DNA of 64,000 nucleotides from Muribaculaceae bacterium (GTDB lineage: Bacteria; Bacteroidota; Bacteroidia; Bacteroidales; Muribaculaceae): assembly GCA_017557425.1 (NCBI GenBank), contig JAFYYU010000015.1, forward strand, positions 1 through 64,000, written 5' to 3'. Both the position numbers and the translations under genes were made by a program. The notes below the pieces were generated by a model that saw only the letters and a program-made list of their open reading frames with translations, searched no databases and was not told the DNA's origin. Shown here in pieces: positions 3,039 to 43,499 of the stretch. The stretch's first letter is position 1. Every line of letters starts with the position of its first letter.

Positions 3039-3043
3039 TATCA

Positions 3044-9780: not shown

Positions 9781-9848
9781 CTATCACAACACACGGTAAT
9801 CAAGTCAATCTGAAATTTTAGTGCGGTTGCCCTGTCTAAACATGAATG

Positions 9849-9881
9849 AAAAAGCCAGAGGAGAACCGGAGTCCTCCTCTG
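9849..9881 (-). terminator. Terminator of the acidic secreted protein gene
   Basis: CAGAGGAG and CTCCTCTG arms (9856-9881); on the minus strand the hairpin is followed by GGCTTTTTC. Confidence 0.75.
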
Positions 9882-9908
9882 ACAGGAAAATCTTAATTAA
9901 AATGTATG

Positions 9909-11645: not shown

Positions 11646-11695
11646 AATAAATAGAATTAATGGTTAATAATTTAGTGAAACAACTCGAACATCCG

Positions 11696-11703
11696 CAAAG
11701 ATA
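11696..11703 (-). promoter_or_regulatory. Promoter -7 box for the acidic secreted protein gene
   Basis: Minus strand TATCTTTG with TTTTTGAT just upstream; leader about 50 nt. Confidence 0.65.
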
Positions 11704-11786
11704 ATCAAAAATTCATAAACTCCAAAAAAATACGCAAAAAAATAAAAGACAAACTCAGAACAACCATAAATCTGATTGTCGAGCAT

Positions 11787-11817
11787 GCCTTTTCAGATGC
11801 GGGCCGTGTTATCTGAA
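11787..11817 (-). terminator. Terminator of the cytidine deaminase gene
   Basis: TTCAGAT/ATCTGAA arms (11792-11798 with 11811-11817) start 3 nt past the stop codon; on the minus strand AAAAGG follows, so the T-tract is weak. Confidence 0.5.
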
Positions 11818-11820
11818 CCC

Positions 11821-12285
11821 TTAGAATTCAGTAAACGAGAGGGGCATCGTGTCGCGGAAGCTGTCGAGGATGTAGATTTTCTCCTTGCCGGCGAGAATGA
11901 GTTCGATGGGATGCCCGTTCTTCTCAAACTCGAGGAAGGCCTGGCGACACACGCCGCAGGGGGCCGTGGGCTCCTCGACGAAGTCGCCCCGTGTGAAAGA
12001 AGTGATGGCCACGGCTTTCACCGGAACGCCGGGGAAATTGGCACCGGCCGAATAGAGTGCGGCGCGTTCTCCACAGATGCCTGCAAATGCCGCATTCTCC
12101 TGATTTGCACCGATAAACACCTCTCCGTTATCGAGCATCAAAGCGGCGCCTACCTTGAAATTACTGTAAGGTGAATAGGAGTTCATGGTGGCCTCTCGGG
12201 CAAGGTCAACTAATTTTTTTTGCTCCTCGGTGAGTTCATTATAAGAATAAACCCTTACCTTTGTGGTGATTTTCTTTTCGGTCAT
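11821..12285 (-). CDS. cdd: Cytidine deaminase
   Basis: 154 residues from the ATG at 12285. The same frame continues open far upstream, but that part is antisense to the neighbouring gene. Zinc-site motifs are complete: CGERAA (Cys71, catalytic Glu73) and PCGVCRQ (Cys110, Cys113), typical of tetrameric cytidine deaminases (EC 3.5.4.5) that convert cytidine/deoxycytidine to uridine/deoxyuridine in pyrimidine salvage. Substrate-binding segment SYSPYSNFKVGAAL is present. The divergent glucosaminidase start codon is only 9 bp away, and the cdd -7 box (12315-12322) lies inside that gene. Confidence 0.95.
   Translation of the reverse strand: MTEKKITTKVRVYSYNELTEEQKKLVDLAREATMNSYSPYSNFKVGAALMLDNGEVFIGANQENAAFAGICGERAALYSAGANFPGVPVKAVAITSFTRGDFVEEPTAPCGVCRQAFLEFEKNGHPIELILAGKEKIYILDSFRDTMPLSFTEF
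12256..12263 (+). promoter_or_regulatory. Promoter -7 box for the glucosaminidase gene, inside cdd
   Basis: TACCTTTG on the plus strand, within the 5' coding part of cdd; leader about 28 nt to the ATG at 12295. Confidence 0.55.
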
Positions 12286-12294
12286 AACGAAATT

Positions 12295-13044
12295 ATGAGT
12301 TTGAACTTTGAACGCAAAATTATAGAAATTTTTCCGATAAGCAAGCAAATATCCCATTTTTGCTTGATTTTTGCGCTGTTTTGTTCCGTTTCGGCGCCAG
12401 CGCAGACTAAACATCAGCAATATTTGGACTATATCGAGCGCTACAAGCAGGTAGCGCTGCAATCGGCGCGCGAGTATGGCGTGCCCGCCAGCATCACCCT
12501 GGCCCAGGGCCTGCTGGAGAGCTACGTGGGCAAGAGCAAGATGGCCGTGGAGGCCAACAACCACTTCGGCATCAAGGCCTATCACTGGCAAGGCGAGGTG
12601 TACGGCCGTTGTGACTCCCTGAAGCAGGTGGGCTACCGCAAGTACGGCACTCCCGAGGACTCTTTCCTGGACCATGCCCAATTCCTCAAAGGGCCGCGCT
12701 ACAGCATCCTGTACCAGTTTGACATCACCGACTACCGCAGCTGGGCGCAGGGCCTGCGCGACTGCGGCTATGCCGAGGATGCCAATTATCCCGCCAAGCT
12801 CATCAATATCATTGAGCAATATGAGCTGTACGCCCTCGACGGCGGCAAGCGCCTGAACGGTGACCGCGTCATCCAGCAGGACGAAGCCGAAGAACAGCCT
12901 AACAATGACCGCTGGCACCACCGCAAGCGCCGCAACCGCACCACCGACCAAAACCAGGTGCAGCAGGAGCAGAGCCAGGAAAACCAGCCGACGTTCACGC
13001 CCATGCGCCAAGGCCGTGTGGGGTCCAGCGCCGATAATGATTGA
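12295..13044 (+). CDS. GH73 glucosaminidase (peptidoglycan hydrolase), secreted
   Basis: 249 residues from the ATG at 12295, chosen because the only upstream TAnnTTTG box is at 12256-12263. A signal-like segment (HFCLIFALFCSVSAPAQ) precedes the catalytic domain (about 50-190): YGVPASITLAQGLLESYVG contains the catalytic Glu of the family, with NNHFGIKAYHW, KYGTPEDSFLDHAQFL and WAQGLRDCGYAED following. Such enzymes cleave the N-acetylglucosamine-N-acetylmuramic acid bond of peptidoglycan. The C-terminal 60 residues are Gln/Asn/Arg-rich and disordered (RWHHRKRRNRTTDQNQ), with no LysM domain. Substrate use is inferred from the family. Confidence 0.88.
   Translation: MSLNFERKIIEIFPISKQISHFCLIFALFCSVSAPAQTKHQQYLDYIERYKQVALQSAREYGVPASITLAQGLLESYVGKSKMAVEANNHFGIKAYHWQGEVYGRCDSLKQVGYRKYGTPEDSFLDHAQFLKGPRYSILYQFDITDYRSWAQGLRDCGYAEDANYPAKLINIIEQYELYALDGGKRLNGDRVIQQDEAEEQPNNDRWHHRKRRNRTTDQNQVQQEQSQENQPTFTPMRQGRVGSSADND
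12315..12322 (-). promoter_or_regulatory. Promoter -7 box for cdd, inside the glucosaminidase gene
   Basis: Minus strand TAATTTTG in codons 7-10 of the glucosaminidase; leader about 33 nt to the cdd ATG. Confidence 0.5.
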
Positions 13045-13051
13045 GGTGTTA

Positions 13052-13083
13052 GGCTTTAGGTTTTATTTAGGCTTTAGGTTTTA
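13052..13083 (+). repeat. Heptamer repeat GGYTTTA downstream of the glucosaminidase
   Basis: Two copies of GGCTTTAGGTTTTA (13052-13065, 13070-13083). The same heptamers recur at 14381-14417 after kbl. Confidence 0.8.
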
Positions 13084-13129
13084 ATGACATTAAAACATAC
13101 ACAACTCATACACTTTAGAAAAAAAGTAT

Positions 13130-13137
13130 TATCTTTG
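13130..13137 (+). promoter_or_regulatory. Promoter -7 box for kbl
   Basis: TATCTTTG; leader of about 50 nt to the ATG at 13190. Confidence 0.65.
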
Positions 13138-13189
13138 TGGGCATCTAATCGACCTAACATATTAATAACCTTTTAAAATAGTAATTATC

Positions 13190-14377
13190 ATGTTCGGAAA
13201 ATTCCAAGAACATCTCCAGAAGGAGCTTGCCGACATCCAGGCTGCCGGCCTTTACAAGAACGAGCGTATCATCACCACGCCTCAGCGCGCCGACATCAAG
13301 GTGAAGCCCGACGACGAGGTGCTGAACTTCTGCGCCAACAACTATCTGGGCCTTAGCGATAACAGCCGCCTGATCAAGGCTGCTACCGAGACCATGTCAC
13401 ACCATGGCTACGGCATGTCGTCGGTACGTTTCATCTGCGGTACCAGCGATATCCACAAGGAACTGGAGGCTGCCATTGCCGACTACTTCCACACCGAGGA
13501 TGCTATCCTCTACGGCTCCTGCTTTGACGCCAACGGCGGTCTGTTCGAGGCCCTGTTGACCGAGGAGGACGCCATCATCAGCGACTCGCTCAACCACGCC
13601 TCGATCATCGACGGCGTGCGCCTGTGCAAGGCAAAACGCTATCGCTATGCCAACGCCGACATGGGCGAGCTCGAGGAGTGCCTGAAGCAGGCCCAGGAGC
13701 AGCGCTTCCGCATCATCGCAACGGACGGTGTCTTCTCGATGGACGGCAACGTGGCTCCCATGGATAAGATCTGTGACCTGGCCGAGAAGTATGACGCCAT
13801 GGTCATGGTCGATGAGTCGCACTCGGCAGGTGTCGTTGGACCGACCGGCCACGGTGTAGCCGAGCAGTTCGACATCTATGGCCGCATCGACGTCTTCACC
13901 GGCACGCTGGGCAAGGCCTTCGGCGGTGCTATGGGCGGTTTCACCACCGGCCGAAAGGAGATCATCGACATGCTGCGCCAGCGCTCACGTCCCTACCTGT
14001 TCAGCAACAGCATCGCTCCCGGCATCGTGGGTGCCAGCATCGAGATGTTCAAGATGTTGAAGGAGAGCAACGCCCTGCACGACAAGCTAGTGGACAACGT
14101 GAACTACTTCCGCGACAAGATGATTGCTGCAGGCTTCGACATCAAGCCCACCCAGAGCGCCATCTGCGCCGTGATGCTCTATGATGCCAAGCTGTCTCAG
14201 GATTTCGCTGCCGAGCTGCAGAAGGAAGGCATCTACGTTACCGGTTTCTACTATCCCGTTGTGCCCAAGGGCCAGGCCCGCATCCGCGTGCAGGTTTCGG
14301 CCGGTCACGAGCGTGAGCACCTCGACAAGTGCATCAACGCCTTCATCAAGATCGGCAAGCAGATGGGGATAATATAA
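13190..14377 (+). CDS. kbl: 2-amino-3-ketobutyrate CoA ligase (glycine C-acetyltransferase)
   Basis: 395 residues, the standard length for this class II PLP enzyme. The pyridoxal lysine is in GTLGKAFGGAMGG (about 239-251). MVMVDESHSAGVVGPTGHG carries the cofactor-binding Asp and His, and NNYLGLS lies near the N-terminus. It joins 2-amino-3-ketobutyrate with CoA to give glycine and acetyl-CoA (EC 2.3.1.29), the second step after the threonine dehydrogenase encoded at 1717-2676. Related 8-amino-7-oxononanoate and serine palmitoyl synthases share the fold, but the high identity feel of FCANNYLGLSDN and the presence of tdh favour kbl. Transcribed alone, with its own promoter and distal terminator. 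Confidence 0.92.
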   Translation: MFGKFQEHLQKELADIQAAGLYKNERIITTPQRADIKVKPDDEVLNFCANNYLGLSDNSRLIKAATETMSHHGYGMSSVRFICGTSDIHKELEAAIADYFHTEDAILYGSCFDANGGLFEALLTEEDAIISDSLNHASIIDGVRLCKAKRYRYANADMGELEECLKQAQEQRFRIIATDGVFSMDGNVAPMDKICDLAEKYDAMVMVDESHSAGVVGPTGHGVAEQFDIYGRIDVFTGTLGKAFGGAMGGFTTGRKEIIDMLRQRSRPYLFSNSIAPGIVGASIEMFKMLKESNALHDKLVDNVNYFRDKMIAAGFDIKPTQSAICAVMLYDAKLSQDFAAELQKEGIYVTGFYYPVVPKGQARIRVQVSAGHEREHLDKCINAFIKIGKQMGII

Positions 14378-14380
14378 TAA

Positions 14381-14417
14381 GGCTTTAGGCTTTAGGTTTT
14401 AGGCTTTAGGTTTTAGG
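14381..14417 (+). repeat. Heptamer repeat GGYTTTA downstream of kbl
   Basis: Five consecutive 7-bp units (GGCTTTA, GGCTTTA, GGTTTTA, GGCTTTA, GGTTTTA) start 4 nt after the kbl stop codon. A low-complexity stretch rich in ACTAAAAACTA follows (14434-14462). Confidence 0.85.
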
Positions 14418-14510
14418 TATGGCGGATGCCGACTAAAAACTAAAAACTTACAACTAACAACTAGAATATAATGAGGCAATCATTATAACACCCAGAAAAA
14501 ACCTCATGTT

Positions 14511-14552
14511 GACGGCCGCAGGTGCATTCACCTGCGGCCGTCCCTTCTTTGT
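14511..14552 (+). terminator. Strong hairpin after kbl
   Basis: Perfect 14-bp arms GACGGCCGCAGGTG (14511-14524) and complement (14529-14542), CATT loop, then CCTTCTTTG. It lies 134 nt beyond the kbl stop. Confidence 0.75.
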
Positions 14553-14611
14553 CCCATGTCTATTACTCCAACTATTAACCTTTCACTATCAACTATTAAC
14601 TAAAAAAACAC

Positions 14612-14619
14612 TATCTTTG
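14612..14619 (+). promoter_or_regulatory. Promoter -7 box directly before the ABC exporter gene
   Basis: TATCTTTG ends only 5 nt before the ATG at 14625, so the mRNA would have almost no leader. Confidence 0.6.
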
Positions 14620-14624
14620 CGGCC

Positions 14625-16445
<1,821 letters not shown>

Positions 16446-27737: not shown

Positions 27738-28373
27738 ATGAACGACAAATTAGAGGAATATATCTTGAGCCATATTGATGAGGAGCCTGCAGAGCTGGCA
27801 CGCATTGATCATGACACCCATGTGCAGAATTACTATTGGCACATGTGCTCGGGACACCTGCAGGGTCGTCTTATCAAGATGTTGACCAGCATGATCAAGC
27901 CGCGACGCGTGCTCGAGATCGGCACCTTCAGCGGCTACTCGGCCCTCTGTCTAGCCGAGGGGCTAGTAGATGACGACTGCCGCGTCGACACCATCGAGGT
28001 TAACGACGAGCAGGAAGACTTCATCCGTAAGCATTTGGCCTTATCACCCTTTGGCAAGCGCGTCTGCCTGCACATCGGCGATGCCCGCGACATTGTGCCC
28101 TCGCTGGGCGAACGTTATGATCTCGTGTTTATCGATGCCAACAAACGGCAGTATGAAGAGTATTATGACCTGGTGATGGACCACCTCAACGACGGTGGCT
28201 ACATCATTGCCGACAACACTTTATGGGCAGGCAAAGTGGTGGACCCCAAGGCCCAACATGAAGCCCAAACCCAAGGCATCCTCGCATTTAATGAGAAAGT
28301 TAAACAAGACCCTCGCGTCGAACAAGTCATCATCCCCATGCGCGACGGCCTTACCCTAATTCATAGACTATGA
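27738..28373 (+). CDS. O-methyltransferase (class I, caffeoyl-CoA type)
   Basis: 211 residues. SAM-binding motif I VLEIGTFSGYSALCLAEGL (about 55-73), DTIEVNDEQEDF with the ribose-binding Glu, LVFIDANKRQYEEYYD (metal/substrate site) and YIIADNTLWAGKVVD are typical of the TrmR/caffeoyl-CoA O-methyltransferase family, which in bacteria includes tRNA 5-hydroxyuridine methyltransferases. Given the housekeeping operon, a tRNA-modifying role is plausible but inferred. Its TGA overlaps the next gene's ATG (ATGA). Confidence 0.88.
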   Translation: MNDKLEEYILSHIDEEPAELARIDHDTHVQNYYWHMCSGHLQGRLIKMLTSMIKPRRVLEIGTFSGYSALCLAEGLVDDDCRVDTIEVNDEQEDFIRKHLALSPFGKRVCLHIGDARDIVPSLGERYDLVFIDANKRQYEEYYDLVMDHLNDGGYIIADNTLWAGKVVDPKAQHEAQTQGILAFNEKVKQDPRVEQVIIPMRDGLTLIHRL

Positions 28374-30307
28374 GTACAATGAGTCCCAATCGATCAACAT
28401 TCTACCGCAGAGCCGCTTTATGCTTTGTCGCCATCTTCTCGTTCTTCCTGCAAGGGATTGCAGGGGATTATTACGTTTATCTTACTGATGGGACGGTGCG
28501 TGTGTTTCCCGATTCGTGCGTATTAAAAAAGTTTAAAAGCAGGAAAGACCGTATTTTATACATTTATCCCATAGTAGGTGAACCGTTCAAATACTCCCTA
28601 GATGATATCGCACAGGACACTGAAACGCCGATCAGGAACTTGCCGACTATTAAATCATTCAAGTTTAACAACAAATACAATTATCAGGTTGTTACCGATG
28701 CTTATGGTGTATTCACCAATGACAGCAGCTGCATCACTGTCGAAGTCTCGGGCATTGGCAAACGCCTGACAGCGTCTTTTTCGGCATCTGACGATAATGC
28801 AAAAGTTTATATTGGGGATGAAGAGGTGGTAAGCACAATCAACCGTTTGCGCTACGATTCCGACAAGGTTTTGTCAATAGGATACATGGGGGACTCTATC
28901 CTGACACGTTTTGAGAACAACACTTACGGTTTTAAGCCTTACCGCAAGGAATATGCCCTCAAGGTCATCTTCTTAACCGATCAGGCCACATCTGTGCCGC
29001 GCATCGACATCAATACCGTTGGCGGTGTGAACATCAGCAGCAAGGAAAAATACATTGATGCCGAAATCATCATTGACGGCAAAGGGGCATTCCCTTCAAT
29101 GACCGACTCGGTAAAAGTCAGAGGGCGCGGTAACACAAGCTGGTCCTCGGACCCCAATGCCAAAAATCCCTACCGCCTCAAGTTTGCAGAGAAGGTTAAG
29201 CCTCTTGGCATGACCAACGGCAAGAACTGGGTGCTTTTAGCCAACAAAATGCCCGGCTCCATGTTGACCAATGCCTACGGCATGAAAATCGCCAGCCTGA
29301 TTGGCACCCCTTATCCCAACAATATCATCCCTGTTGATCTTTATGTCAACGGCGTCTATAAGGGGAATTACAATCTTACTGAAAAAGTGGGACTCTATAA
29401 CAATAGCGTGGAACTGGACAACGAGAAAGTAGCAGCCCTGTTGGAACTGGACGATTACTTTGACGAGGAAGAGGGCCAGAAATTTACATCCTCTCCCTAC
29501 AGTATACCTGTCAACATAAAAGAGCCTGACTTTGGTGTTGACACTACAATGCTAACATTAAACATCATCAAATATCGTTTCAACAGATTCGCCACAGCGG
29601 TTTCTCTTGGCAGGGGGATTACCGATCATGTCGACACCGACTATCTCGCCCGTTACCTGCTGACAAGCGATCTGATATACAACAGAGAGTTGTTCCATCC
29701 CAAGAGCGTGTTTTGCTATAACGTGGATTTATCTGACAACAACAGCAAGTTCGTTTTTGGGCCTATTTGGGATCTTGACTGGGGGTTCGGTTATACAGAA
29801 ATATGGACTTCCTACTTTAACCGAAATGCGACAAAAGACTTTTTCGCGAACTCAAGCGGCTTGCAACAGAGTAAGTTTTTTTGCGCATTACGGAATGAAC
29901 CGAAGGTCGCCAGACGGATATTTGAGTTGTGTAGGGACTTCGTGAAAAATGATCTTGATGAGTTGTGTGAGTACTTTGAGGACTATTATTTATATGCCAA
30001 GCCCTCTCTTGAAAGCAGCACGTCGGCATACCCAGATCCAACTAATTACGCCGTGCAATCGGTTCAGGCAGCCACATGGATCAGGCAACGCGCCAATTAT
30101 CTCCTCAATAAACTCAAGCAAGAGATGAGGATGCCCGGTGATGTAGACGATGACGGAATCATCACAATCAAAGACGTGACCACGCTCATCGACTATCTCA
30201 TTGGGATTGCAGAACTGTCTAACGACTTGAATGCCGATGTTAATCAAGACGGCGTAATAACCATTCAAGACACGATCGTCCTTATTGACATGTTATTAAA
30301 TAAGTAA
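28370..30307 (+). CDS. CotH-family kinase-like secreted protein with dockerin repeats
   Basis: 645 residues. Signal peptide (about 15-32, LCFVAIFSFFLQGIAG). N-terminal beta-rich part (33-215), then a CotH domain (about 225-580): VKVRGRGNTSW, KNPYRLKF, GKNWVLLAN, LYVNGVYKGNYNLTEKV and FGPIWDLDWGFGY, the residues that in spore CotH kinases bind ATP and metal. The C-terminus (about 585-645) is a dockerin pair: GDVDDDGIITIKDVTTLIDYL and ADVNQDGVITIQDTIVLIDML. Proteins like this occur on Bacteroidota surfaces and may bind polysaccharide; activity is not shown. The start overlaps the preceding stop by 4 nt, tying a secreted protein to a housekeeping operon. Confidence 0.85.
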   Translation: MSTMSPNRSTFYRRAALCFVAIFSFFLQGIAGDYYVYLTDGTVRVFPDSCVLKKFKSRKDRILYIYPIVGEPFKYSLDDIAQDTETPIRNLPTIKSFKFNNKYNYQVVTDAYGVFTNDSSCITVEVSGIGKRLTASFSASDDNAKVYIGDEEVVSTINRLRYDSDKVLSIGYMGDSILTRFENNTYGFKPYRKEYALKVIFLTDQATSVPRIDINTVGGVNISSKEKYIDAEIIIDGKGAFPSMTDSVKVRGRGNTSWSSDPNAKNPYRLKFAEKVKPLGMTNGKNWVLLANKMPGSMLTNAYGMKIASLIGTPYPNNIIPVDLYVNGVYKGNYNLTEKVGLYNNSVELDNEKVAALLELDDYFDEEEGQKFTSSPYSIPVNIKEPDFGVDTTMLTLNIIKYRFNRFATAVSLGRGITDHVDTDYLARYLLTSDLIYNRELFHPKSVFCYNVDLSDNNSKFVFGPIWDLDWGFGYTEIWTSYFNRNATKDFFANSSGLQQSKFFCALRNEPKVARRIFELCRDFVKNDLDELCEYFEDYYLYAKPSLESSTSAYPDPTNYAVQSVQAATWIRQRANYLLNKLKQEMRMPGDVDDDGIITIKDVTTLIDYLIGIAELSNDLNADVNQDGVITIQDTIVLIDMLLNK

Positions 30308-31897: not shown

Positions 31898-33208
<1,311 letters not shown>

Positions 33209-33673: not shown

Positions 33674-34315
33674 ATGCATGACCGCTTGAAACTCATCATC
33701 ACGTTGCTGCTTGTGCCCATCCTGGGGACAGCATGCTCTGGCAACGCCAGTGAAACCCAACCCGTTCCTCAACCCGTCAAAGCCGAAGTCACGGCACCGC
33801 CCACCCTACCAGACAGCCCTACCGGCACGGCGTTTATCGTCGTCTCGAAACGGGACCAAACGCTCAGCGTCTATGACCTGAACGCGTCGGGCGACACCGT
33901 CATGGTGGCCCAGTTCCCCTGCTGCATGGGCAAGAACAAGGGCAATAAAGTGAAACGCGGCGACATGCGCACACCCGAGTCCCCCGCAGGCAAGCCCTTC
34001 AAGATCACCATGATACAGGATGCATCCACGTGGCATCACGATTTTAAGGACGGCCGTGGCAACATCAAAGCCTACGGTAACTGGTTCCTGCGACTGGAAA
34101 CGCCAGGCCACAGGGGCATCGGCATCCACGGCAGCACCAACAACGAGAACACCGTCCCCGGCCGCGCCAGCGAAGGCTGCATCCGCCTGCTCGACAAGGA
34201 CATCATCACCCTCAAGGAGCACTTCGCCTACGTCGGCATGCCCGTCATCGTCCAGCCCGAAGACCAGGCACCTCTCCCCTGGGAACTCCGCGCCCGCCAG
34301 CGCAATACGAATTAA
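33674..34315 (+). CDS. L,D-transpeptidase (YkuD domain) lipoprotein
   Basis: 213 residues. Signal with lipobox LGTAC (Cys21), then a Pro-rich spacer (TQPVPQPVKAEVTAPP), then a YkuD domain (about 50-195). The catalytic motif is complete: IGIHGSTNNENTV with SEGCIRL (nucleophilic Cys in the SxGC(I/V)R box, about residue 176). Such enzymes make 3-3 crosslinks in peptidoglycan or attach proteins to it, from the periplasm. It stands alone on the plus strand, and its 3' side is the boundary of the surface-protein array. Confidence 0.9.
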   Translation: MHDRLKLIITLLLVPILGTACSGNASETQPVPQPVKAEVTAPPTLPDSPTGTAFIVVSKRDQTLSVYDLNASGDTVMVAQFPCCMGKNKGNKVKRGDMRTPESPAGKPFKITMIQDASTWHHDFKDGRGNIKAYGNWFLRLETPGHRGIGIHGSTNNENTVPGRASEGCIRLLDKDIITLKEHFAYVGMPVIVQPEDQAPLPWELRARQRNTN

Positions 34316-34340: not shown

Positions 34341-34386
34341 CGGCCGGCTGAGGGAATCAGTCGGTCATTTTTGAGGTGGCACCAGC
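34341..34386. repeat. Terminator hairpin plus tRNA-tail-like repeat, copy R0 (diverged)
   Basis: CGGCCGGCTGA-GGGAA-TCAGTCGGTC hairpin followed by ATTTTTGAGGTGGCACC. It resembles R1-R3 (TTTTTGATGTGGTACC) with several changes and serves as a bidirectional terminator between the L,D-transpeptidase and DUF285 genes. Confidence 0.6.
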
Positions 34387-34438
34387 AATTATTACCCTCT
34401 CAGAGAGCATAAGGGATTTGTCATAGTTTGCAGGAGAT

Positions 34439-35983
34439 TTAATTCGGCCAGCTACCGCACAGCAGGTAGTCGATCAGGGTGGTTACGTCGCTGATGTTCA
34501 CGCTGCCGTCCTGGTCGCAGTCGGCAGCACTCAGGTTAACGCCGCTGGCGTTGCCGCTCAGCAGATAGTCGATCAAGGTAGTCACGTCGCTGATGTTCAC
34601 GCTGCCGTCGCCGTTCACGTCACCGCGCGAATAAGCAGGCTTCTCGCTAAAGTAGCCCGGGTTGCTGGGGCCACCGTCAATGTGGGCATAAGCGGCATCC
34701 ACATGGTTGGCATCGTAGGTCGTGCCTTTGCCGCCCACCAGGCTGGTGCAGCCATAGAACATATTGTTTGAAGAGGTCACTGCTGCTGTACTCCAAGCAT
34801 CGCCCACATAGATGGTTTTCAAGTATGGACAATTCCAGAACATCCACATCATATAGTTCACATCGGCCGTGTTGAAACTGCTCAAGTCAAGACTCGTTAA
34901 GGATTTGCAACCATCGAACAAATTGCTCATATTGGTCACATTGGCCGTGTTGAAACTGCTCACATTAAGGCTTTTCAAAGCTATGCAATCAGAGAACATC
35001 CCCGCCATATCGGTCACGTTGGCCGTGTTGAAGTTGCTCACGTCAAGGCTTGTCAAGGCACTGCAGCCAGAGAACATGTTACGCATATTAGCCACATCTG
35101 CAGTATTGAAGTGGCTCACGTCAAGGCTCGTCAAGTTACTGCAGTCAGAGAACATGGAGGACATGTCGGTTACTTTTGCGGTATTGAAGTGGCTCACATC
35201 AAGATTTGTCAAAGCACCGCAATTCAAGAACACGGATGACATGTATTCCACATTAGCGGTATTGAAGTGGCTCACATCTATATTTGTCAAACTGCTGCAT
35301 CCCCAGAACAGGCCTGACATGTATTGCACATTCGCAGTGTTGAAGTGACTCACGTCAAGACTTGTTAAACTGGAGCATCCCTCGAAAGTGACAGCCATAT
35401 ATTTCACGTTAGCGGTGTTGAAACTGCTCACATCAAGGCTCGTCAAACCTTTGCACCCTCCGAACATATTAGATATGTTTACCACTTTATCGGTGTTGAA
35501 ATGGCTCAGGTCAAGGCTCGTCAAACCGGTGCAATTATAGAACATGCTATTCATGTCGGTCACATTTCGGGTGTTGAAATGACTCAAGTCAAGTCTCGTC
35601 AAGTTACTGCAGTCAAAAAACATGCAGGACATATCAGTCACCTGAGACGTGTTGAGGTATTGCATACCCGTGAAAGACTGAAGGTATTGCATACTCATAA
35701 ACCAATTGTGGGTTGATGTGGGACGCGCACTGGCGAAAGACGAGTTGAACACAACCCGCGTGACCGACGAATTACTGCCGTCGTTGTACCAGCCGGGATT
35801 GTTGCTGCCCGTGTTCAGGTCATAGGTCGTTCCCGTGCGGGAACTGCGCAGGTTGTCATAATAGAACGTCAGCGTCGTGTTAGACGACGTATAGCATGCA
35901 TATGCCTCAGCAGCCACCGCACTTATTGAACACAGCAGGCAGGCCACGAGGGCGAGCACGTTAAAATATAGTCTCTTGTTCAT
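34439..35983 (-). CDS. BspA-like surface protein with 11 DUF285 repeats and dockerin pair
   Basis: 514 residues. Signal peptide to about residue 25 (AVAAEAYA). After an entry domain (SNTTLTFYYDNLRSSRTGTT), eleven 26-residue repeats run from about 105 to 395, each of the form NTANVTDMSxMFxxCxxLTSLDVSxF (DUF285, a relative of leucine-rich repeats in BspA and mycoplasmal surface proteins). A closing domain (GGPSNPGYFSEKP) precedes two dockerin units (GDVNGDGSVNISDVTTLIDY and DCDQDGSVNISDVTTLIDYL). Probable surface adhesin or display protein; partner unknown. It lies 32 nt downstream of its shorter paralogue in one operon. Confidence 0.88.
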   Translation of the reverse strand: MNKRLYFNVLALVACLLCSISAVAAEAYACYTSSNTTLTFYYDNLRSSRTGTTYDLNTGSNNPGWYNDGSNSSVTRVVFNSSFASARPTSTHNWFMSMQYLQSFTGMQYLNTSQVTDMSCMFFDCSNLTRLDLSHFNTRNVTDMNSMFYNCTGLTSLDLSHFNTDKVVNISNMFGGCKGLTSLDVSSFNTANVKYMAVTFEGCSSLTSLDVSHFNTANVQYMSGLFWGCSSLTNIDVSHFNTANVEYMSSVFLNCGALTNLDVSHFNTAKVTDMSSMFSDCSNLTSLDVSHFNTADVANMRNMFSGCSALTSLDVSNFNTANVTDMAGMFSDCIALKSLNVSSFNTANVTNMSNLFDGCKSLTSLDLSSFNTADVNYMMWMFWNCPYLKTIYVGDAWSTAAVTSSNNMFYGCTSLVGGKGTTYDANHVDAAYAHIDGGPSNPGYFSEKPAYSRGDVNGDGSVNISDVTTLIDYLLSGNASGVNLSAADCDQDGSVNISDVTTLIDYLLCGSWPN

Positions 35984-36015
35984 AATCGGTGTGGTTTATA
36001 GGTTAGTTAAGTCAT

Positions 36016-37008
36016 TTACCACGAGCCGCACAGCAGGTAGTCGATTAAGGTGGTTACGTCGCTGATGTTCACGCTGCCGTCCTGGTCGCAGTCAGCGGCA
36101 CTCAGGTTGACGCCATCGGCATTGCCGCTCAGCAGGTAGTCGATCAAGGTAGTCACGTCGCTGATGTTCACACTGCCGTCACTGTCCACGTCACCACGCA
36201 GGAAGTCAACCTTCTCGCTGAAGTAGCCTGGGTTACTCGGACCGCCGTCGATGTGGGCATAAGCAACATCCACGTAGTTCTCGTCATAGGTCGTACCCTT
36301 GCCACCCACCAGGTTAGTACAGCCAATAAACATATTATTAGACTGTGACACGGCAGCTGTGCTCCACTCGTCACCGGCATAGATGGTCGTCAAACTGGTG
36401 CAGCTACGGAACATGTTCTCCATGGATATTACTTTGGCGGTGTTAAAGATACTCAGGTCCAGGCTCGTCAAACCGTAGCAGCCTGCGAACATGCTGTACA
36501 ATCTTGTCACGTTGGCTGTGTTGAAACTGCTCAGGTCCAGGCTCGTCAAACCAGAGCAGCTTAGGAACATACAGTCCATGATGGTTACGTTCGCGGTGTT
36601 GAAATTGCTCAAGTCAAGACTAGTCAATGCGATACAGCCAGAGAACATGTAACCCATGTTTGTCACCTCAGATGTATTGAGGTATTGCATGCCAGTGATG
36701 GACTCCAGCTTAATCATAAGATGAAACCATTGGTAGGTCGATGTGGGGCGCGCATCGGCAAATGACGGATCGAATACCACCCGAGTGAGGTAATAATAGA
36801 TTCCGGGGGTGTTCCACTCCGGAGGATTAGACTCCGTGTTCAGGTCATAGGTCGTGCCCGAGCGGGAACTGCGCAGGTTGTCAAAGTAGAACGTCAGCGT
36901 GGAGTCCTCAGGCGTGAAATTGACATAGGCCTCCTGGGCCATTGTCCCAAGGGCGCACATCATGGCCGCTACCAGGGCGACGAGTTTAAATAGTAGTTTC
37001 TTGTTCAT
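36016..37008 (-). CDS. BspA-like surface protein with 4 DUF285 repeats and dockerin pair
   Basis: 330 residues; signal MNKKLLFKLVALVAAMMCALGTMAQ. Same plan as the downstream gene, but only four 26-residue repeats (about 110-215) instead of eleven. The entry domain, closing domain (AHIDGGPSNPGYFSEKV) and both dockerin units are nearly identical to the neighbour even at the DNA level, pointing to recent duplication or gene conversion with repeat loss or gain. It is first in the two-gene operon, with a -7 box at 37075-37082. Function: presumed cell-surface protein. Confidence 0.88.
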   Translation of the reverse strand: MNKKLLFKLVALVAAMMCALGTMAQEAYVNFTPEDSTLTFYFDNLRSSRSGTTYDLNTESNPPEWNTPGIYYYLTRVVFDPSFADARPTSTYQWFHLMIKLESITGMQYLNTSEVTNMGYMFSGCIALTSLDLSNFNTANVTIMDCMFLSCSGLTSLDLSSFNTANVTRLYSMFAGCYGLTSLDLSIFNTAKVISMENMFRSCTSLTTIYAGDEWSTAAVSQSNNMFIGCTNLVGGKGTTYDENYVDVAYAHIDGGPSNPGYFSEKVDFLRGDVDSDGSVNISDVTTLIDYLLSGNADGVNLSAADCDQDGSVNISDVTTLIDYLLCGSW

Positions 37009-37074
37009 AGTTATCGGGATTTATTGGTTAGTACTATTTTTTGCTGTTTGGAGTTTCTTACGAGGTGTAGACTA

Positions 37075-37082
37075 CAAAGGTA
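37075..37082 (-). promoter_or_regulatory. Promoter -7 box of the DUF285 operon
   Basis: Minus strand TACCTTTG; leader about 60 nt. Confidence 0.6.
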
Positions 37083-37131
37083 ATCAACTTTTTCAGATTC
37101 TCATCAACGGTTAGACCATTTTATCTCCCGC

Positions 37132-37336
37132 AGACGCCTTATATATGTATTATGATTTAGACTAACTTTTTATTTATCAACTTTTTAATAACACAACATT
37201 ATGAGACAACTATTGAAATTTATCAACCTTGCGGCTCAGCTAACTGCATGAATAACTGACAATTTACATCCCACACGACAAAAAAGCGGCTGGCTGCGTG
37301 GGCAGTCGGCCGCTTGTTTTTTGATGTGGTACCTCC
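37132..37336. repeat. 205-bp cassette-boundary repeat, copy R1
   Basis: Collinear with 43233-43437. Shared blocks include CGCCTTATATA, TAGACTAACTTTTTATTTATC, ACATTATGAGAC, GACAATTTACATCCCACACG, the hairpin GCGGC..GCCGC (37286-37313) and the tail TTGATGTGGTACCTCC (37321-37336), which on the minus strand is the 3' end of tRNA-Phe (GGAGGTACCA) plus flank. Confidence 0.85.
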
Positions 37337-37483
37337 AGTCTCGGATGAATGAGTTTAAAGGAGACCGAATGAGTCGTTGATGTCGCTGATATTCAGAAAA
37401 TTAAGCTATCACCGAATACTCACTGAGATTACCATGTATCACCAAGGTTCAATCCCGGTTGTCATTTTGACAACCAGTTATAT

Positions 37484-39979
37484 CTAATTCTCGGCGCCAC
37501 TCAGGATGATGTTGATGACGGCGTTGATGTCAGCGATGTTGATTTCGCCATCATCATTCACGTCAGCCGAAGTGGTGCCACTATCTCCGCCCAAGATGAT
37601 GTTGATGACGGCATTTACATCTGCGATGTTCACTTCGCCGTCGCCATTCACGTCGCCCGGCACTTGATCCATCTCCACGATAGAGCCGAAATACGGATAC
37701 CAGTTCTCGTCAGCCCGGTAGGCATCAGCCATCCCCTGCAGTACGTGAAGCGTACGACCAGAGTAATCACCATTATCCAATGAGAATTGTCTATTCCCGT
37801 TCGATACCCTTGAGAGGTCAGCAATGTAGCAATACACATCCGTCAGGCCGCAACCATAGAACGCTCTTTCGCCGATAGAGGTAACGGAATTCCCAATCGT
37901 CACGCTTGTCAGTCCGCAGTACTCGAATGCCGAGGCACCGATTGAAGTAACGGAGTTTGGAATGGTGATGCTTGTCAGGCCCCAGCAGCCAGCGAACGCT
38001 TCCTTGCCGATGTGAGTGACGGAATTCCCCATCTTCACGTTTGACAGTTGACGGCAATACCTGAACGCATTATCTCCAATATTAGTGACGGAATTACCAA
38101 TCGTCACGCTTGTCAGGCTGCTACAATCATAGAACGCTCTTTCGCCGATGGAGGTGACGGAATTCCCAATCGTCACGCTTGTCAGGCCGCTGCAGTTCTC
38201 GAATGCCGCGTCACCCATTGAAGTAACGGAGTTTGGAATGGTGATGTTGGTCAGTCCGCTGCAGCCAGCGAACGCTGAGCCGCCGATGTAAGTAAGGGAG
38301 TTTGGAATGGTGATACTTGTCAGGACACTGCAACCAGAGAACGCATAATCGCCAATGGTAGTGACGGAAGTCCCCATTGTCACGTTCGACAATTTACGTA
38401 AATCGTATGCAAAATAATCGGGTATCTTCTGTACGCTATCGCCAATGATGATGGTCGAGATATTTAATTTAAATAAACTACTTTCACCTGGCGTTAAACT
38501 GAAATTGTCACATGAAACAGCATTAAAAATAAGTGTATCCAATAACGTGCAACGTTGGAATGCACATTCGCCGATGGAGGTGACGGATTTGCCAATCGTA
38601 ACGCTTGTCATACTATTGTTAGAATAGAACGCTCTTTCGCCGATGGTAGTGACGGAATTCGGAATCTCCACGCTCATAAGCCTACTGCAACCCATGAAGG
38701 CACATTCGCCAATGGAAATGACGGAATTCGGGATAGTCACACTCGTCAATTGGGTGAAACAGTATGCAAAATAGGCTGGAATCTTCTGTACACTATTACC
38801 AATATTGACAGTCGAGATATTATTTAAGTAATAGAAAGGACTATCGTTTCCCGTTGTACCGAATTCAGTGCACTCTACTGCATTGAAATTGAGGGTATCC
38901 AATGATGTGCAACTCGCGAACGCATTTTTGCCGATGGAGGTGACGGAATTGCCAATCGTCACGCTGGTCAGGCCGCTGCAACCATAGAACGCATTTTCTC
39001 CAATATTAGTGACGGAATTCGGAATCTCCACGCTTGTCAGGCCGCTGCAACCATAGAACGCTTCGTAGCCGATGGAAGTGACGGAATTCCCAATCTCCAC
39101 GCTTGTCAGGCCGCTGCAAAGAGAGAACGCACCGGAACCAATTGACGTGACGGAATTCCCAATCGTCACGCTAGTTAGGCCACTGCAACCACTGAACGCT
39201 TGATCTCCAATATTAGTGACGGAATTCGGTATCGCCACACTCGTAAGCCCACTGCAATCCATAAAGGCACATTCGCCAATGGTAGTGACGGAATTAGGAA
39301 TCTCCACGCTTGTCAGGCCATAGCAATTATAAAACGTATTAGGGCTGATGGTGGTGACGGAGTCCGGAATCGTCACGCTCCGCAGGTAATAGCAACCACC
39401 GAACGCATATTCGTCGATGGAAATGACGGAATTCGGGATTGTCACGCCCGTCAGGCCACTGCACCAATAGAACGCATGACTTGTGATACTTTTCGTACCA
39501 TCAGTTATAATGATATGTGTCCCTTCTGGCATCCTGCCTTTGTACTTATAAGCTACCAACCCAGCGTAAACAAGACCATCGGGTTGATTATCATACCACT
39601 CCGTATTATCAAATGCATCTCTGCCGATGTAAGTGACGGAATTCGGTATCGTCACGCTCCGCAGGTAATAGCAACCACCGAACGCATATTTGCCAATGGA
39701 GGTGACGGAATTCCCAATCGTCACGCTCCTCAGGCCGCGGCAATGACAGAACGCCTCACCACCGATGGAAGTGACGGAGAAAGTGGTTCCATTGTAGGTA
39801 ACAGTAGCCGGGATGACAACAGAGCCTGAATACCCACCATTGGCCCCATTGTTGGTCACAGTGGCTTCGTTGCCGTTGATGTTGTAGTAGATGCCATCGA
39901 CCTTAAAGTCGTAGGCCGTAGCGAGTGCGGGCAGCATGAGGGTCAGCACCAAGAAAGAAAAGCGGAACAGTTGTTTCAT
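37484..39979 (-). CDS. BspA-like LRR_5 surface protein with dockerin pair, long form
   Basis: 831 residues; signal MKQLFRFSFLVLTLMLPALATA. About 25-28 leucine-rich repeats of 23 residues (type LTSVTIGNSVTSIGERAFYGCSG, LRR_5) fill residues 60-720 and include two inserted loops (around VECTEFGTTGNDSPFYYL and VSCDNFSLTPGESS). The closing segment (LSRVSNGNRQFSLDNGDYSG, LHVLQGMADAYRADENW) and dockerin pair (GDVNGDGEVNIADVNAVINI and ADVNDDGEINIADINAVINI) match the paralogue at 40305. BspA-type proteins bind host or bacterial surface partners; ligand here unknown. Single gene with own promoter (40040-40047). Confidence 0.9.
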   Translation of the reverse strand: MKQLFRFSFLVLTLMLPALATAYDFKVDGIYYNINGNEATVTNNGANGGYSGSVVIPATVTYNGTTFSVTSIGGEAFCHCRGLRSVTIGNSVTSIGKYAFGGCYYLRSVTIPNSVTYIGRDAFDNTEWYDNQPDGLVYAGLVAYKYKGRMPEGTHIIITDGTKSITSHAFYWCSGLTGVTIPNSVISIDEYAFGGCYYLRSVTIPDSVTTISPNTFYNCYGLTSVEIPNSVTTIGECAFMDCSGLTSVAIPNSVTNIGDQAFSGCSGLTSVTIGNSVTSIGSGAFSLCSGLTSVEIGNSVTSIGYEAFYGCSGLTSVEIPNSVTNIGENAFYGCSGLTSVTIGNSVTSIGKNAFASCTSLDTLNFNAVECTEFGTTGNDSPFYYLNNISTVNIGNSVQKIPAYFAYCFTQLTSVTIPNSVISIGECAFMGCSRLMSVEIPNSVTTIGERAFYSNNSMTSVTIGKSVTSIGECAFQRCTLLDTLIFNAVSCDNFSLTPGESSLFKLNISTIIIGDSVQKIPDYFAYDLRKLSNVTMGTSVTTIGDYAFSGCSVLTSITIPNSLTYIGGSAFAGCSGLTNITIPNSVTSMGDAAFENCSGLTSVTIGNSVTSIGERAFYDCSSLTSVTIGNSVTNIGDNAFRYCRQLSNVKMGNSVTHIGKEAFAGCWGLTSITIPNSVTSIGASAFEYCGLTSVTIGNSVTSIGERAFYGCGLTDVYCYIADLSRVSNGNRQFSLDNGDYSGRTLHVLQGMADAYRADENWYPYFGSIVEMDQVPGDVNGDGEVNIADVNAVINIILGGDSGTTSADVNDDGEINIADINAVINIILSGAEN

Positions 39980-40039
39980 TGCCGTATATTGTTTAAGTTA
40001 ATAACGATTGATAGAGGCACTGCTTAAAGGTTTGACCCA

Positions 40040-40047
40040 CAAAGGTA
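40040..40047 (-). promoter_or_regulatory. Promoter -7 box of the long LRR_5 gene
   Basis: Minus strand TACCTTTG; leader about 55 nt. Confidence 0.6.
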
Positions 40048-40107
40048 ATAAAGATTTTTCAATTCTTATCACAGGCATGCCCATTTCCTATGACATCCAA
40101 CAAAAAA

Positions 40108-40157
40108 ACGGCCGGCTGATTTCTCAGTCGGTCGTTTGTTTTTGATGTGGTACCTCC
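40108..40157. repeat. Terminator hairpin plus tRNA-Phe tail, copy R2
   Basis: ACGGCCGGCTGA-TTTC-TCAGTCGGTCGT hairpin (40108-40135) and TTGATGTGGTACCTCC (40142-40157). On the minus strand, CCGGAGGTACCACATCAA equals the tRNA-Phe 3' end at 43422-43439. Confidence 0.85.
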
Positions 40158-40304
40158 GGTCTCGCATGGATGAGTCTGAATGAGACCGAATGAGTCGTCG
40201 ATGCCACTGATATTCAAACAATTAGAATACCACCTAAGACTCACCATGGTGCATTTAGAATCACCAAGGCTCAATCTCGGTTGACATTTTGACAACCGAT
40301 TATG

Positions 40305-41747
40305 TCAATTTAAGGTGCCGCCCAGGATGATGTCAATGACAGCGTTGATGTCGGCGATGTTGATTTCTCCATCACCGTTCACGTCGGCAGCAGTAGTGCT
40401 ACTGTTTCCACCCAAGATGATGTCGATGACGGCATTCACATCAGCAATATTGACTTCAAGGTCGCCATTCACGTCACCCATGAATATATCTTCCACAATC
40501 TGTCTGAAATACGGATTCCAGTTCTTATCAGCCCGGTAGGCATCACCCGTCCCCCGCAGCACATGAAGCGTGCGACCAGAGTAATCACTATTGAAATCCC
40601 TATAGAATAGTTGATTCCCGCACGATACGCCCGAGAGGTCAGCAATGTAGCAATACACATCCGTCAGCATCCAGCAGTTCTTGAACGCCTCGTTACCAAT
40701 TGAAGTCACCGAGTTCGGGATGACGATGCTGGTCAGACCATCGCACCAATAGAACGCATTGTCACCGATTTCAGTCACCGAGTTAGGAATATTGATGCTG
40801 GTCAGACCTTGGCAGTTGTAGAACGCATATCTACCGATAGAAGTCACCGAGTTGGCGATGTCGACGCTGGTCAGTCCTTTGCAGCTCTCGAACGCACATT
40901 TACCGATAGCAGTCACCGAGTTGGGAATAATGATGCTGGTCAGGCCACGGCAGTAAGAGAACGCAAAGTTACCGATTGAAGTTACCGAGTTGGGGATCAT
41001 CGTGTTCTTGCAGCCAACAATTAAAGTATTATCGGCGGTCTCTATAATTGCATTGCAGTTGTTGCGCGAATCATATCTTGGATTGCCACTTTCTACTACG
41101 ATGCAGGCCAGCTCATCGCAGTTCTCGAACACATTGTCACCGATAGCAGTCACCGAGTTAGGAATATTGATGCTGGTCAGACCATCGCAGTTGTAGAACG
41201 CTTTGTTACCGATAGCAGTCACCGAGTTGGGGATGACGATGCTGGTCAGACCATCGCAGCCCTCGAACGCAAAGTTACCGATCTTAGTCACCGAGTTGGG
41301 GATCATCGTGTTCTTGCAGCCAGCAATTAAAGTATTAGAGGCGGTCTCTATAATTGCATTGCAGTTGTTGCGCGAATCAAACCTTGGATTGCCACTTTCT
41401 ACCACGATGCTGGTCAGCACAGGGCAGTTCCCGAACGCAAAGTTACCGATCTTAGTTATCGAGCTGGGGATGTCGACGCTGGTCAGACCTTCGCAACAAT
41501 AGAAGGCAATTTCATCGATTGAAGTTACCGGGTAGGTGGTTCCATTGTAGGTGACGGTGGGCGGGATGACAACAGAGCCTAAATACCCAACGAAATACAT
41601 ATCATAATAATCACCTTTGCTGGTCACGGCGGCCTCGTTGCCGTTGATGTTGTAACAGATGCCATCGACCTGGAAGTCGTAGGCCGAGGCGGTAGCTGAC
41701 AGCATGAGGGCCAGTAGCAGTGTTATCAGTTTCTTAGTCGTGTTCAT
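40305..41747 (-). CDS. BspA-like LRR_5 surface protein with dockerin pair, short form
   Basis: 480 residues from the ATG at 41747 (MNTTKKLITLLLALMLSATASA); an in-frame ATG at 41777 lies beside the -7 box and is rejected. About a dozen 23-residue LRR_5 repeats (type LTSINIPNSVTEIGDNAFYWCDG) are interrupted twice by the same loop (IVVESGNPRYDSRNNCNAII, then NTLIVGCKNTMIPNSV), revealing an internal segment duplication. The closing segment and dockerin pair (GDVNGDLEVNIADVNAVIDI, ADVNGDGEINIADINAVIDI) are shared with the long form. Presumed surface adhesin. Confidence 0.9.
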   Translation of the reverse strand: MNTTKKLITLLLALMLSATASAYDFQVDGICYNINGNEAAVTSKGDYYDMYFVGYLGSVVIPPTVTYNGTTYPVTSIDEIAFYCCEGLTSVDIPSSITKIGNFAFGNCPVLTSIVVESGNPRFDSRNNCNAIIETASNTLIAGCKNTMIPNSVTKIGNFAFEGCDGLTSIVIPNSVTAIGNKAFYNCDGLTSINIPNSVTAIGDNVFENCDELACIVVESGNPRYDSRNNCNAIIETADNTLIVGCKNTMIPNSVTSIGNFAFSYCRGLTSIIIPNSVTAIGKCAFESCKGLTSVDIANSVTSIGRYAFYNCQGLTSINIPNSVTEIGDNAFYWCDGLTSIVIPNSVTSIGNEAFKNCWMLTDVYCYIADLSGVSCGNQLFYRDFNSDYSGRTLHVLRGTGDAYRADKNWNPYFRQIVEDIFMGDVNGDLEVNIADVNAVIDIILGGNSSTTAADVNGDGEINIADINAVIDIILGGTLN

Positions 41748-41774
41748 GATGTTATTCTGTTTGGGTTTATTCTG

Positions 41775-41782
41775 CAAAGATA
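41775..41782 (-). promoter_or_regulatory. Promoter -7 box of the short LRR_5 gene
   Basis: Minus strand TATCTTTG; a run of six C (41807-41812) lies 24 nt upstream, mirroring the left-edge gene. Confidence 0.6.
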
Positions 41783-41874
41783 CTTATTATTTTCGGAAAA
41801 GTTTCACCCCCCTGTTTTAATATTTATTTAACAAATATTGGGTGGATTCGACGGCTGTGGGCGGTTGTAATCGG

Positions 41875-43116
41875 TTAGTTACCGCAGTAGGTGCCGATGA
41901 AGAAGATGCTACGGGTGCTCTCCTCGAGAATGAAATACAGGAAGGGGCGGTTGGCATGAAACACGGCTTTCTCATAAAGTTGCGGCCCGGGAGATGTCGC
42001 TTCCATTCCCGATATGGTGACGGCCGAGGCTTTGGCGCCCTCCTCGTCGACATCGATCTTGGCCTTCTGCTTCATCATTGATACATACAAGCTCATGTCA
42101 GACATGTTAGAGAAGTCGGCACTGGCGGTGAACGCCGATTGGATGCCCATGGGTTTAAGAACACTAATCAGGTCAATATCGCTCACGATTTCAAACCGCG
42201 GCATGAGGATATCCACCTCTTGGGCTGTCATGTCGATGGCGTTCAGGTGTTCGGTAAGGGCTTGCTGGCTCATGTCGCGGATGAGGTCGCTCGTGGTCTT
42301 CCCCTCGGCAGGCAGCATGACATACATGCTGTAGCCACCGCTACCAAAGGGTATGCGCAGCATGGAACACAACTCGCTCTCGCAGCCCTGTGCTATAGCC
42401 TTGCGGTGCATAAGTTCACGTGTAACGACAGACCCGTCAGGCAAGGTAAAACTTGAGTTGCGGGTGTCGTTTTTATCAAATTTCTCTTTCCAGTCGGCGT
42501 TGAAGTAGATGGCGTTCAACAGATACATCGCGGCGTTGGGATTGATTTCGTTAAGGATGCTCGGAATCATGCCGCCAGTATTCTTTGAGCACCACTTGTT
42601 GATTTTGTCGAGGGTTCCGCTTTTGGTGAAGTCCAGTGCGTCAATCTGAGCGTTGTAGTAGTTCTTCATGTCATTGACAAATGCCCCAAGCAGACTCAGC
42701 CCTTTGGCCGAATTGACATTGATGCAGTTGGCGATTTTCACAGTCGCTGCAGGATCGACATTGGGCGCTCCCTCAATCATTTTCTTGCAATACTCGTTCA
42801 CAGCCTTCGGGTCTGAGCCAAAGCCCAGTGTAGCGGTGATTTCGTCGCGTGTTGTCCCTGCCGCACCAGTGTTAAGCATCCCCAGCATATAGGTCACGCT
42901 GATGGGTGATAGTACAGTGCTGACCTCGCCTTGCTGCTCCTGCATGGTCTGGAACAGACGCCATGCAAACTCATTGTTGTTGTCACGCATCTGCTGTTGT
43001 TCTGCACTCAACTGGATGGGCTTCACCTCAGGAAGCATATAAACCACCTCTCCGTCATCTTTACAGGCCGTCAGTGCCAACAGGCACACTAGCGTTGTAT
43101 AAAGTATCTTTTTCAT
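41875..43116 (-). CDS. Serpin lipoprotein (serine protease inhibitor)
   Basis: 413 residues. Lipoprotein signal with lipobox ALTAC (Cys18), then a full serpin fold: NNEFAWRLFQ (helix A), LSPISVTYMLGMLNTGAAG (helix B), YLLNAIYFNADWKEKF (strand 3A), DILMPRFEI, and the hinge DEEGAKASAVTISGMEAT, with small residues as expected for an inhibitory reactive loop. The serpin end signature FHANRPFLYFILEESTRSIFFIG is present. Gut Bacteroidales serpins are thought to protect against host or microbial proteases; the target here is not predictable. It lies between the LRR_5 gene and tRNA-Phe, same strand. Confidence 0.93.
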   Translation of the reverse strand: MKKILYTTLVCLLALTACKDDGEVVYMLPEVKPIQLSAEQQQMRDNNNEFAWRLFQTMQEQQGEVSTVLSPISVTYMLGMLNTGAAGTTRDEITATLGFGSDPKAVNEYCKKMIEGAPNVDPAATVKIANCINVNSAKGLSLLGAFVNDMKNYYNAQIDALDFTKSGTLDKINKWCSKNTGGMIPSILNEINPNAAMYLLNAIYFNADWKEKFDKNDTRNSSFTLPDGSVVTRELMHRKAIAQGCESELCSMLRIPFGSGGYSMYVMLPAEGKTTSDLIRDMSQQALTEHLNAIDMTAQEVDILMPRFEIVSDIDLISVLKPMGIQSAFTASADFSNMSDMSLYVSMMKQKAKIDVDEEGAKASAVTISGMEATSPGPQLYEKAVFHANRPFLYFILEESTRSIFFIGTYCGN

Positions 43117-43175
43117 TGCGATATTAGTTTATTCCGTAAATAATTCCGTTAAAGTATACCAGTTTTTAAGCACTG

Positions 43176-43183
43176 CAAAGATA
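43176..43183 (-). promoter_or_regulatory. Promoter -7 box of the serpin gene
   Basis: Minus strand TATCTTTG; leader about 55 nt. Confidence 0.6.
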
Positions 43184-43232
43184 CGAAAAGTATCTTGTTC
43201 ATGTTCAATATTCGCTTCCAAAAAAAACCGAA

Positions 43233-43437
43233 GTCGCCTTATATAATTATGATATAGACTAACTTTTTATTTATCCACTTATTAACAACAATAACATTAT
43301 GAGACGACTTTTTGAAATTTAGCAACTATGCGGCTCAGTTCATGGCATGCATCACTGACAATTTACATCCCACACGATAAAAAAACGGCCGGCTGCATGG
43401 GCAGTCGGCCGCTTCGTGTTTTTGATGTGGTACCTCC
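43233..43437. repeat. 205-bp cassette-boundary repeat, copy R3 (at the tRNA)
   Basis: Homologous over its length to 37132-37336. The hairpin CGGCCGGCTGC-ATGG-GCAGTCGGCCG (43386-43411) is the tRNA-Phe terminator, and the last 10 bp belong to the tRNA itself. Confidence 0.85.
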
Positions 43438-43499
43438 GGGGATCGAACCAGGGACACGCGGATTTTCAGTCCACTGCTCTACCACTGAGCTAAGGTACC
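43428..43499 (-). tRNA. tRNA-Phe (anticodon GAA)
   Basis: Minus strand forms a complete cloverleaf: acceptor GGTACCT/AGGTACC with discriminator A, D-arm GCTC-AGTGGTA-GAGC, anticodon loop ACTGAAAATCC, T-arm with GGTTCGATCC. CCA is not encoded. A TATCTTTG box lies at 43516-43523 and a strong hairpin terminator at 43386-43411. Confidence 0.93.

Follow-up and report, generated by a model that had tools for sequence, protein, structure and literature searches.

Surface-protein gene units between copies of the tRNA-Phe 3' end in a Muribaculaceae genus: probable accretion at an attachment site

The window, a 64,000-nucleotide stretch of a Muribaculaceae draft genome (2.58 Mb, 24 contigs, 85% complete), carries an array of surface-protein genes on its minus strand beside a tRNA-Phe(gaa) gene (43427..43499; ARAGORN), the anchor of the array and, as elements are joined to its 3' end in relatives, its probable attachment site. 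Reading away from the tRNA, we found a core made of the last 10 nt of the tRNA plus CATCAA together with the native terminator (R3, 43379..43437), a serpin gene (41875..43116, 413 aa; Pfam Serpin, 1.5e-95) and LRR_A, a BspA-type gene with LRR_5 and dockerin domains (40305..41747, 480 aa; scanned against Pfam as 40305-41777), a homologue of which is tRNA-adjacent in genome G036. No core separates the serpin gene from LRR_A, and the unit that they make up ends at a second core and terminator (R2, 40099..40157); it is followed by LRR_B, an LRR_5 and dockerin gene (37484..39979, 831 aa; Pfam), by a third core with terminator and leader (R1, 37132..37336), by two DUF285 and dockerin genes (36016..37008, 330 aa, and 34439..35983, 514 aa; Pfam) and by R0 (34341..34386), a decayed core and terminator at the outer end of the array, all on the minus strand. 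Pfam agrees with the first-pass annotation, which had placed serpin, LRR_5 and DUF285 genes between the tail copies. On the outer flank lie a YkuD-domain gene (33674..34315, plus strand; Pfam) and a minus-strand 435-aa gene (31898..33205), presumably enolase to judge from its start, which serves as a flank marker with a protein match in 14 compared loci, the window included. Dockerin domains terminate the four array proteins and also a CotH protein (window 28370-30307); for cohesin, the window's genome gave one marginal match only (26.3 bits against a cut-off of 24.1).

R3, R2 and R1 contain the core as an exact 16-mer on the minus strand (43422-43437, 40142-40157 and 37321-37336), and with three mismatches allowed none of 100 shuffles reached three matches (mean 0.46, largest 2), which bears out the proposed copies of the tRNA tail and rules out chance matches as their source. 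All three were also recovered by a tail+terminator profile and by folding, with hairpins of -22.5 kcal/mol (z -5.4) in R3, -15.0 (z -3.4) in R2 and -18.9 (z -4.3) in R1; the terminator hairpin claimed for every copy therefore stands for these three, but by fold alone is unconvincing for R0 (-11.1 kcal/mol, z -1.3). The profile, built from the tails of relatives and of the window with R0 left out, matched R0 at 34383 (E 5.1e-7), in keeping with its description as a diverged copy. R1 and the R3 copy of the same 205-bp stretch (43233..43437) are homologous as had been stated, with 180 of 209 alignment columns identical (86%), and homology between R1 and R2 extends upstream into the 3' flanks of the LRR genes, a continuation that holds the clue to how the array arose. 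A dispersed genome repeat was rejected, the 219-bp R1 query matching only R3 and R2 elsewhere in the window's genome. The supposed gene start shared by R1 and R3 is an ATG-led plus-strand stub of 16 codons in R1, with a stop after 7 codons in R3, and has a single 23-bp match elsewhere among the fetched loci; the idea that the R1/R3 leader is an inverted LRR gene start found no support on comparison.

To place the array in context we surveyed 101 genomes of the same genus and fetched loci from 63 of them, the window's genome included; all genome comparisons are between species, with one draft genome per species. tRNA-Phe was matched in 92 of the 101 genomes. The exact 16-mer gave 51 matches in 31 of the 101, and 9 more genomes matched only with one mismatch; the reversed control gave 0 exact matches in 61 genomes and, with one mismatch, 47 matches in 36 of the 101, so that the nine one-mismatch-only genomes need other support. 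The match in at least one of these nine (G072) was shown to be no tail, and a one-mismatch match at G099:C18 was also discarded, the tail profile giving no match there. Scanning the fetched loci of the 63 genomes with the profile located 78 full cores, of which 29 lie at a tRNA-Phe and 49 away from one; these 49 are defined by the profile and not by the 16-mer alone, are spread over 25 genomes, contain the exact 16-mer in 27 cases and include 4 prophage ends. Intervals between consecutive full cores (n = 37) measure 1.3-9.9 kb, with a median of 2.5 kb. When truncated cores are included there are 42 units with 67 ORFs of at least 90 aa (window units counted), 56 of which are similar to the LRR, DUF285 or serpin proteins of the window. 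Integrase genes were absent among the Pfam-scanned genes of the window array, and none was seen in the LRR units, where the 11 of 67 ORFs without a reference match were scanned only in part. Beside the tRNA docking site the row differs from species to species: unit number and content vary among the genomes examined, and a gene order fixed in all relatives, which the first-pass annotation had set against its own proposal of a modular locus, was not what we observed. In public records the same tail occurs in 34 stretches from metagenome-assembled Muribaculaceae, 'Prevotellaceae', 'Porphyromonadaceae' or Bacteroidales, several of them with titles that name the gut of goat, sheep or roe deer.

In relatives, elements with an integrase sit at this very junction, starting exactly at the tRNA 3' end and bearing a copy of that end at their far side. 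A prophage end with its own terminator directly follows the CCA of tRNA-Phe in G102, G017, G114 and G006, as does element B in G099, G035 and G018; far ends of the prophage join the same core in G017, G020, G006 and G114, and those of element B do so in G018, G035 and, with differing flank and terminator, G076. Tyrosine integrases were identified by Pfam beside the element end for the G102 prophage and for element B of G018 and G035, the Phage_integrase matches lying at L078:3294-4457 (2.7e-18), L026:12479-13834 (8.8e-9) and L032:1141-2493 (7.7e-11). Among the fetched loci no element lies whole on one contig, attL and attR of element B being on separate contigs in G035 and G018, and the element B attR was not found in G099. 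Apart from the query's own set, close element-B integrases (at least 72% identical) were found in five genomes only (G076, G018, G095, G031 and G035 itself). Those of G095 and G031 have a different arm, and a core is missing within 600 bp of them; the window's genome has only a 41% relative. A sister element sits at tRNA-Arg(acg) in G018, with its left end on G018:C11, its right end, which has the same kind of arm, on G018:C54, and an integrase 72% identical to that of G035. In L200 (G107:C37) a tRNA-Arg(acg) tail copy and terminator stand without a tRNA, hinting at more integration at that gene. A search of IMG/VR with one pattern found no free phage with the prophage attP; one viral contig, L201 (IMGVR_UViG_3300031992_000337), terminates in the arm of the prophage together with the core and an LRR unit that resembles LRR_A of the window at about 90%.

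It is the flanks of the window's LRR genes that tie the array to element B. The 160 bp ending at the R2 core, made up of the LRR_A 3' flank and the core (40142..40301, minus strand), match the integrase-side end of element B in G035 at 156 of 160 positions (97.5%), and the equivalent R1 end (LRR_B 3' flank and core, 37321..37482, minus strand) matches the same arm at 130 of 162; upstream of the tRNA, G035 and the window's genome are only 77.5% identical over 2496 bp. Motif search places an inverted repeat, GGTTGTCAAAATGACAACC, in both ends (40277-40297 in R2, 37455-37475 in R1). At up to 3 mismatches it lies upstream of 24 of the 49 non-tRNA cores and of none of the 27 tRNA cores, and it occurs in 9 of 3000 windows drawn at random; the motif survey lists 50 non-tRNA cores, one of which is G106's tRNA. 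A 25th candidate (G101) is cut by a contig end, and 24-25 of the 49 non-tRNA cores, about half, lack the motif. It stands 139-140 bp (10 cases), 46-47 bp (10), 73 bp (2) or 85 bp (2) from the core, and the 139-140 bp group brings together the two integrase-bearing ends and 8 further cores, R1 and R2 among them. Across whole genomes the motif gave 33 matches in 22 of the 101, against none for the reversed control; array contigs account for 30 of them, two more adjoin integrases (G076 and G018:C54) and one precedes an LRR gene (G079). It was found in 13 of 297 sampled family genomes, the 2 outside the genus being two-mismatch matches. TTGACAACC is also present in the other end of element B, and the GGTTGTCAAAATGACAACC/TTGACAACC repeats are putative integrase arm sites. 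LRR/dockerin units lie between core copies, about half of which have the integrase-side arm motif of element B just upstream, and no left-hand arm of element B was found in LRR units.

Several loci depart from this arrangement or add to it. Serpin genes occur in 58 of the 101 genus genomes and are not unique to the window: in L204 (G079:C120), positions 1-3800 hold an LRR_A-like end, a serpin gene with 90% protein identity, an arm motif without a core and the start of an LRR gene, and on G077:C81, from a genome of the genus without the 16-mer, tRNA-Phe has a serpin gene some 3 kb away. In L097 (G107:C21) a 9.65-kb unit bounded by two cores holds genes for DarT, DUF6939 and a kinase-LRR fusion next to an LRR gene (7988-14728), possibly defence cargo. 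In L029 (G007:C54, about 9937-9965) a core is flanked on both sides by LRR/DUF285 genes on a 140-kb contig without tRNA-Phe, the tRNA-Phe array of G007 being on another contig; this stretch, 97.6% shared with G031 (L027, G031:C1), is either a second locus or a remote part of the array. The tRNA-Phe of L105 (G106:C13) has a short internal duplication, and that of L116 (G115:C12) lacks its 3' part and is joined to the terminator, oddities that could be genuine or assembly errors.

Comparison between species places the breakpoints of this variation at the core. Where two loci share their downstream sequence and are unrelated upstream, homology starts no more than 3 bases from the core in 24 of 25 pairs, which are non-independent and one of which shares 11 bases, and identity over the 25 falls from 0.96 at -2 to 0.24 at -3. 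Three pairs represent filled and empty states. From core base 1 onward, G035 and G070 are 97.3% identical over 2611 bp, a stretch that follows the tRNA in G070 and the element B end in G035; the third unit of G009 corresponds to the first, tRNA-adjacent unit of G022 (93.6%, 1312 bp); and the LRR_B unit, second in the window's row, lies directly after tRNA-Phe in G071 (90% over 2452 bp, with a 115-bp leader at 93.9%). Units are closer than rpoB in G097/G120 (98.4 versus 90.7-92.9), G035/G070 (97.3 versus 88.1), G036/G070 (95.7 versus 88.2) and G007/G020 (98.8 versus 88.6), barely so in G107/G120 (94.9 versus 92.4), and no closer in G031/G095 (about 90-95.5% versus 93.3%) or G035/G036; the window's genome and G022 yielded no rpoB, so their unit pairs have no rpoB score. 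The excess of unit over rpoB identity suggests transfer between species. The serpin gene precedes LRR_A in the window and follows the LRR_A-like end in G079, where no core was found, a sign of possible reshuffling independent of cores. Decay of cores with distance from the tRNA was weak (p 0.029 over 15 arrays, 0.11 without prophage ends), too weak for a steady age gradient along the arrays, on which we do not rely.

We consider CIME-like accretion at the tRNA-Phe attachment site, followed by reshuffling, the best reading of the array and a probable one, in which the core copies behave as attachment-site remnants. Of the two explanations first put forward for the locus, the one in which insertions accumulate step by step at the 3' end of the tRNA is directly supported: integrase elements sit at the exact site, the R2 flank is near-identical to an element end, breakpoints fall at the core and filled and empty pairs exist. 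Against accretion count the absence of the arm at about half of the cores, the few close element-B integrases, the element B ends found on separate contigs or, for attR in G099, not at all, the serpin gene and LRR_A sharing one unit, the G031/G095 units being no closer than rpoB, the weak core decay and the restriction of all comparisons to different species. The other explanation, segmental duplication, fails by itself to account for a common joining place of tRNA, prophage, element B and LRR 3' flanks, though reshuffling by recombination probably contributes. A rival account, in which a single early insertion left an LRR gene and an element-B end and all later growth came from tandem duplication, unequal crossing-over and gene conversion with no further site-specific LRR events, draws on the mutual homology of the LRR genes and their 3' ends, on terminators and leaders that offer long shared stretches for recombination, on units 1 and 2, neighbours which G097 and G120 share as a pair, and on the differing serpin order in the coreless G079 stretch; we judge it unlikely in view of the 24 of 25 breakpoints at the core and of an arm whose spacing matches that of the integrase-bearing elements and which is 97.5% alike between species.

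Two further alternatives would dispense with accretion at the tRNA altogether. That the copies are conserved terminators re-used for each transcription unit, with no mobile element involved, would fit the good hairpin and T run of every copy but R0, yet a terminator needs neither 10 nt of tRNA nor an element-B arm, and with integrase-bearing elements at the same junction we hold it highly improbable. Hardest of all to credit is chance or an artefact of draft metagenome assembly: several contigs do stop at or near a core (G097, G101), the tRNA-Phe genes of G106 and G115 are odd, and both the one-mismatch reversed control and the G072 match call for caution, but the exact matches in 31 genomes stand against none in the exact control, arrays occur within long contigs (e.g., 151 kb and 317 kb), and the 49 cores rest on the profile.

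In relatives, the 3' end of tRNA-Phe (about CCGGAGGTACCAC) is the attachment site for tyrosine-integrase elements. Under accretion followed by reshuffling, units would have entered by integration beside the tRNA or would descend from integrated elements, older units being shifted outward while their sites decayed. Later, an integrating element may have carried units between species in cis, an element-B-type integrase may have moved them in trans, or their flanks may have undergone homologous recombination. As every core has its own terminator, insertion would spare the tRNA and leave it followed by a terminator. The LRR genes are placed between a native-type terminator and the right arm of element B, in units where no left arm was seen, an arrangement for which this reading does not account. 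A bolder and doubtful proposal, which we offer tentatively, is that LRR/dockerin units are individually mobile cassettes, moving as circles of one or two genes with the element-B arm and tRNA core and inserted in trans at tRNA-Phe by element-B-type integrases, an integron-like exchange of surface proteins. The locus offers a traceable path along which gut Bacteroidota may swap surface-protein genes between species; the docking site and the arm on this path are defined, and there are candidate integrases. Single units, if they do move, would form a tRNA-based counterpart, specialised for the cell surface, to the cassette arrays of integrons.

Among open-licence PMC papers we found none that treats this locus or describes tRNA-linked LRR cassettes. 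Integron cassette arrays consist of short same-strand units, each with a copy of the recombination site, beside a fixed site, and depend on an IntI-type integrase and a folded attC; the present array resembles them in its short same-strand units ending in a site copy beside a hairpin, and differs in that the integrase domains are of phage type, the hairpin is a terminator and the units have their own leaders. Tycheposons are tRNA-linked islands with tyrosine recombinases and cargo, and by that description the array shares all three features. The Dehalococcoides ssrA islands (PMC3146451) are many and stand in tandem, bounded by short 3'-end repeats and some without an integration module, and our units likewise lie in tandem downstream of one RNA gene between 3'-end repeats, though with tRNA-Phe, tyrosine integrases and LRR/dockerin cargo in place of ssrA, serine recombinases and reductive dehalogenases. 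The closest parallel is with CIMEs, which in PMC5704250 are units bounded by attachment sites that accrete in tandem at a tRNA 3' end. The array likewise has units stacked by a tRNA between copies of the attachment site, with integrase elements adjoining, with cores on both sides and with the element-B arm at 24 of the 49 non-tRNA cores, R1 and R2 included; a CIME origin by decay of an integrative element is probable for its units, and their excision and transfer are putative. Unlike the CIMEs described there, its units mostly hold one or two genes (median 2.5 kb) of one kind of surface protein, and it is the very small size of these surface-gene units, several to a site and genus-wide, that sets the array apart from CIME accretion as so far described.
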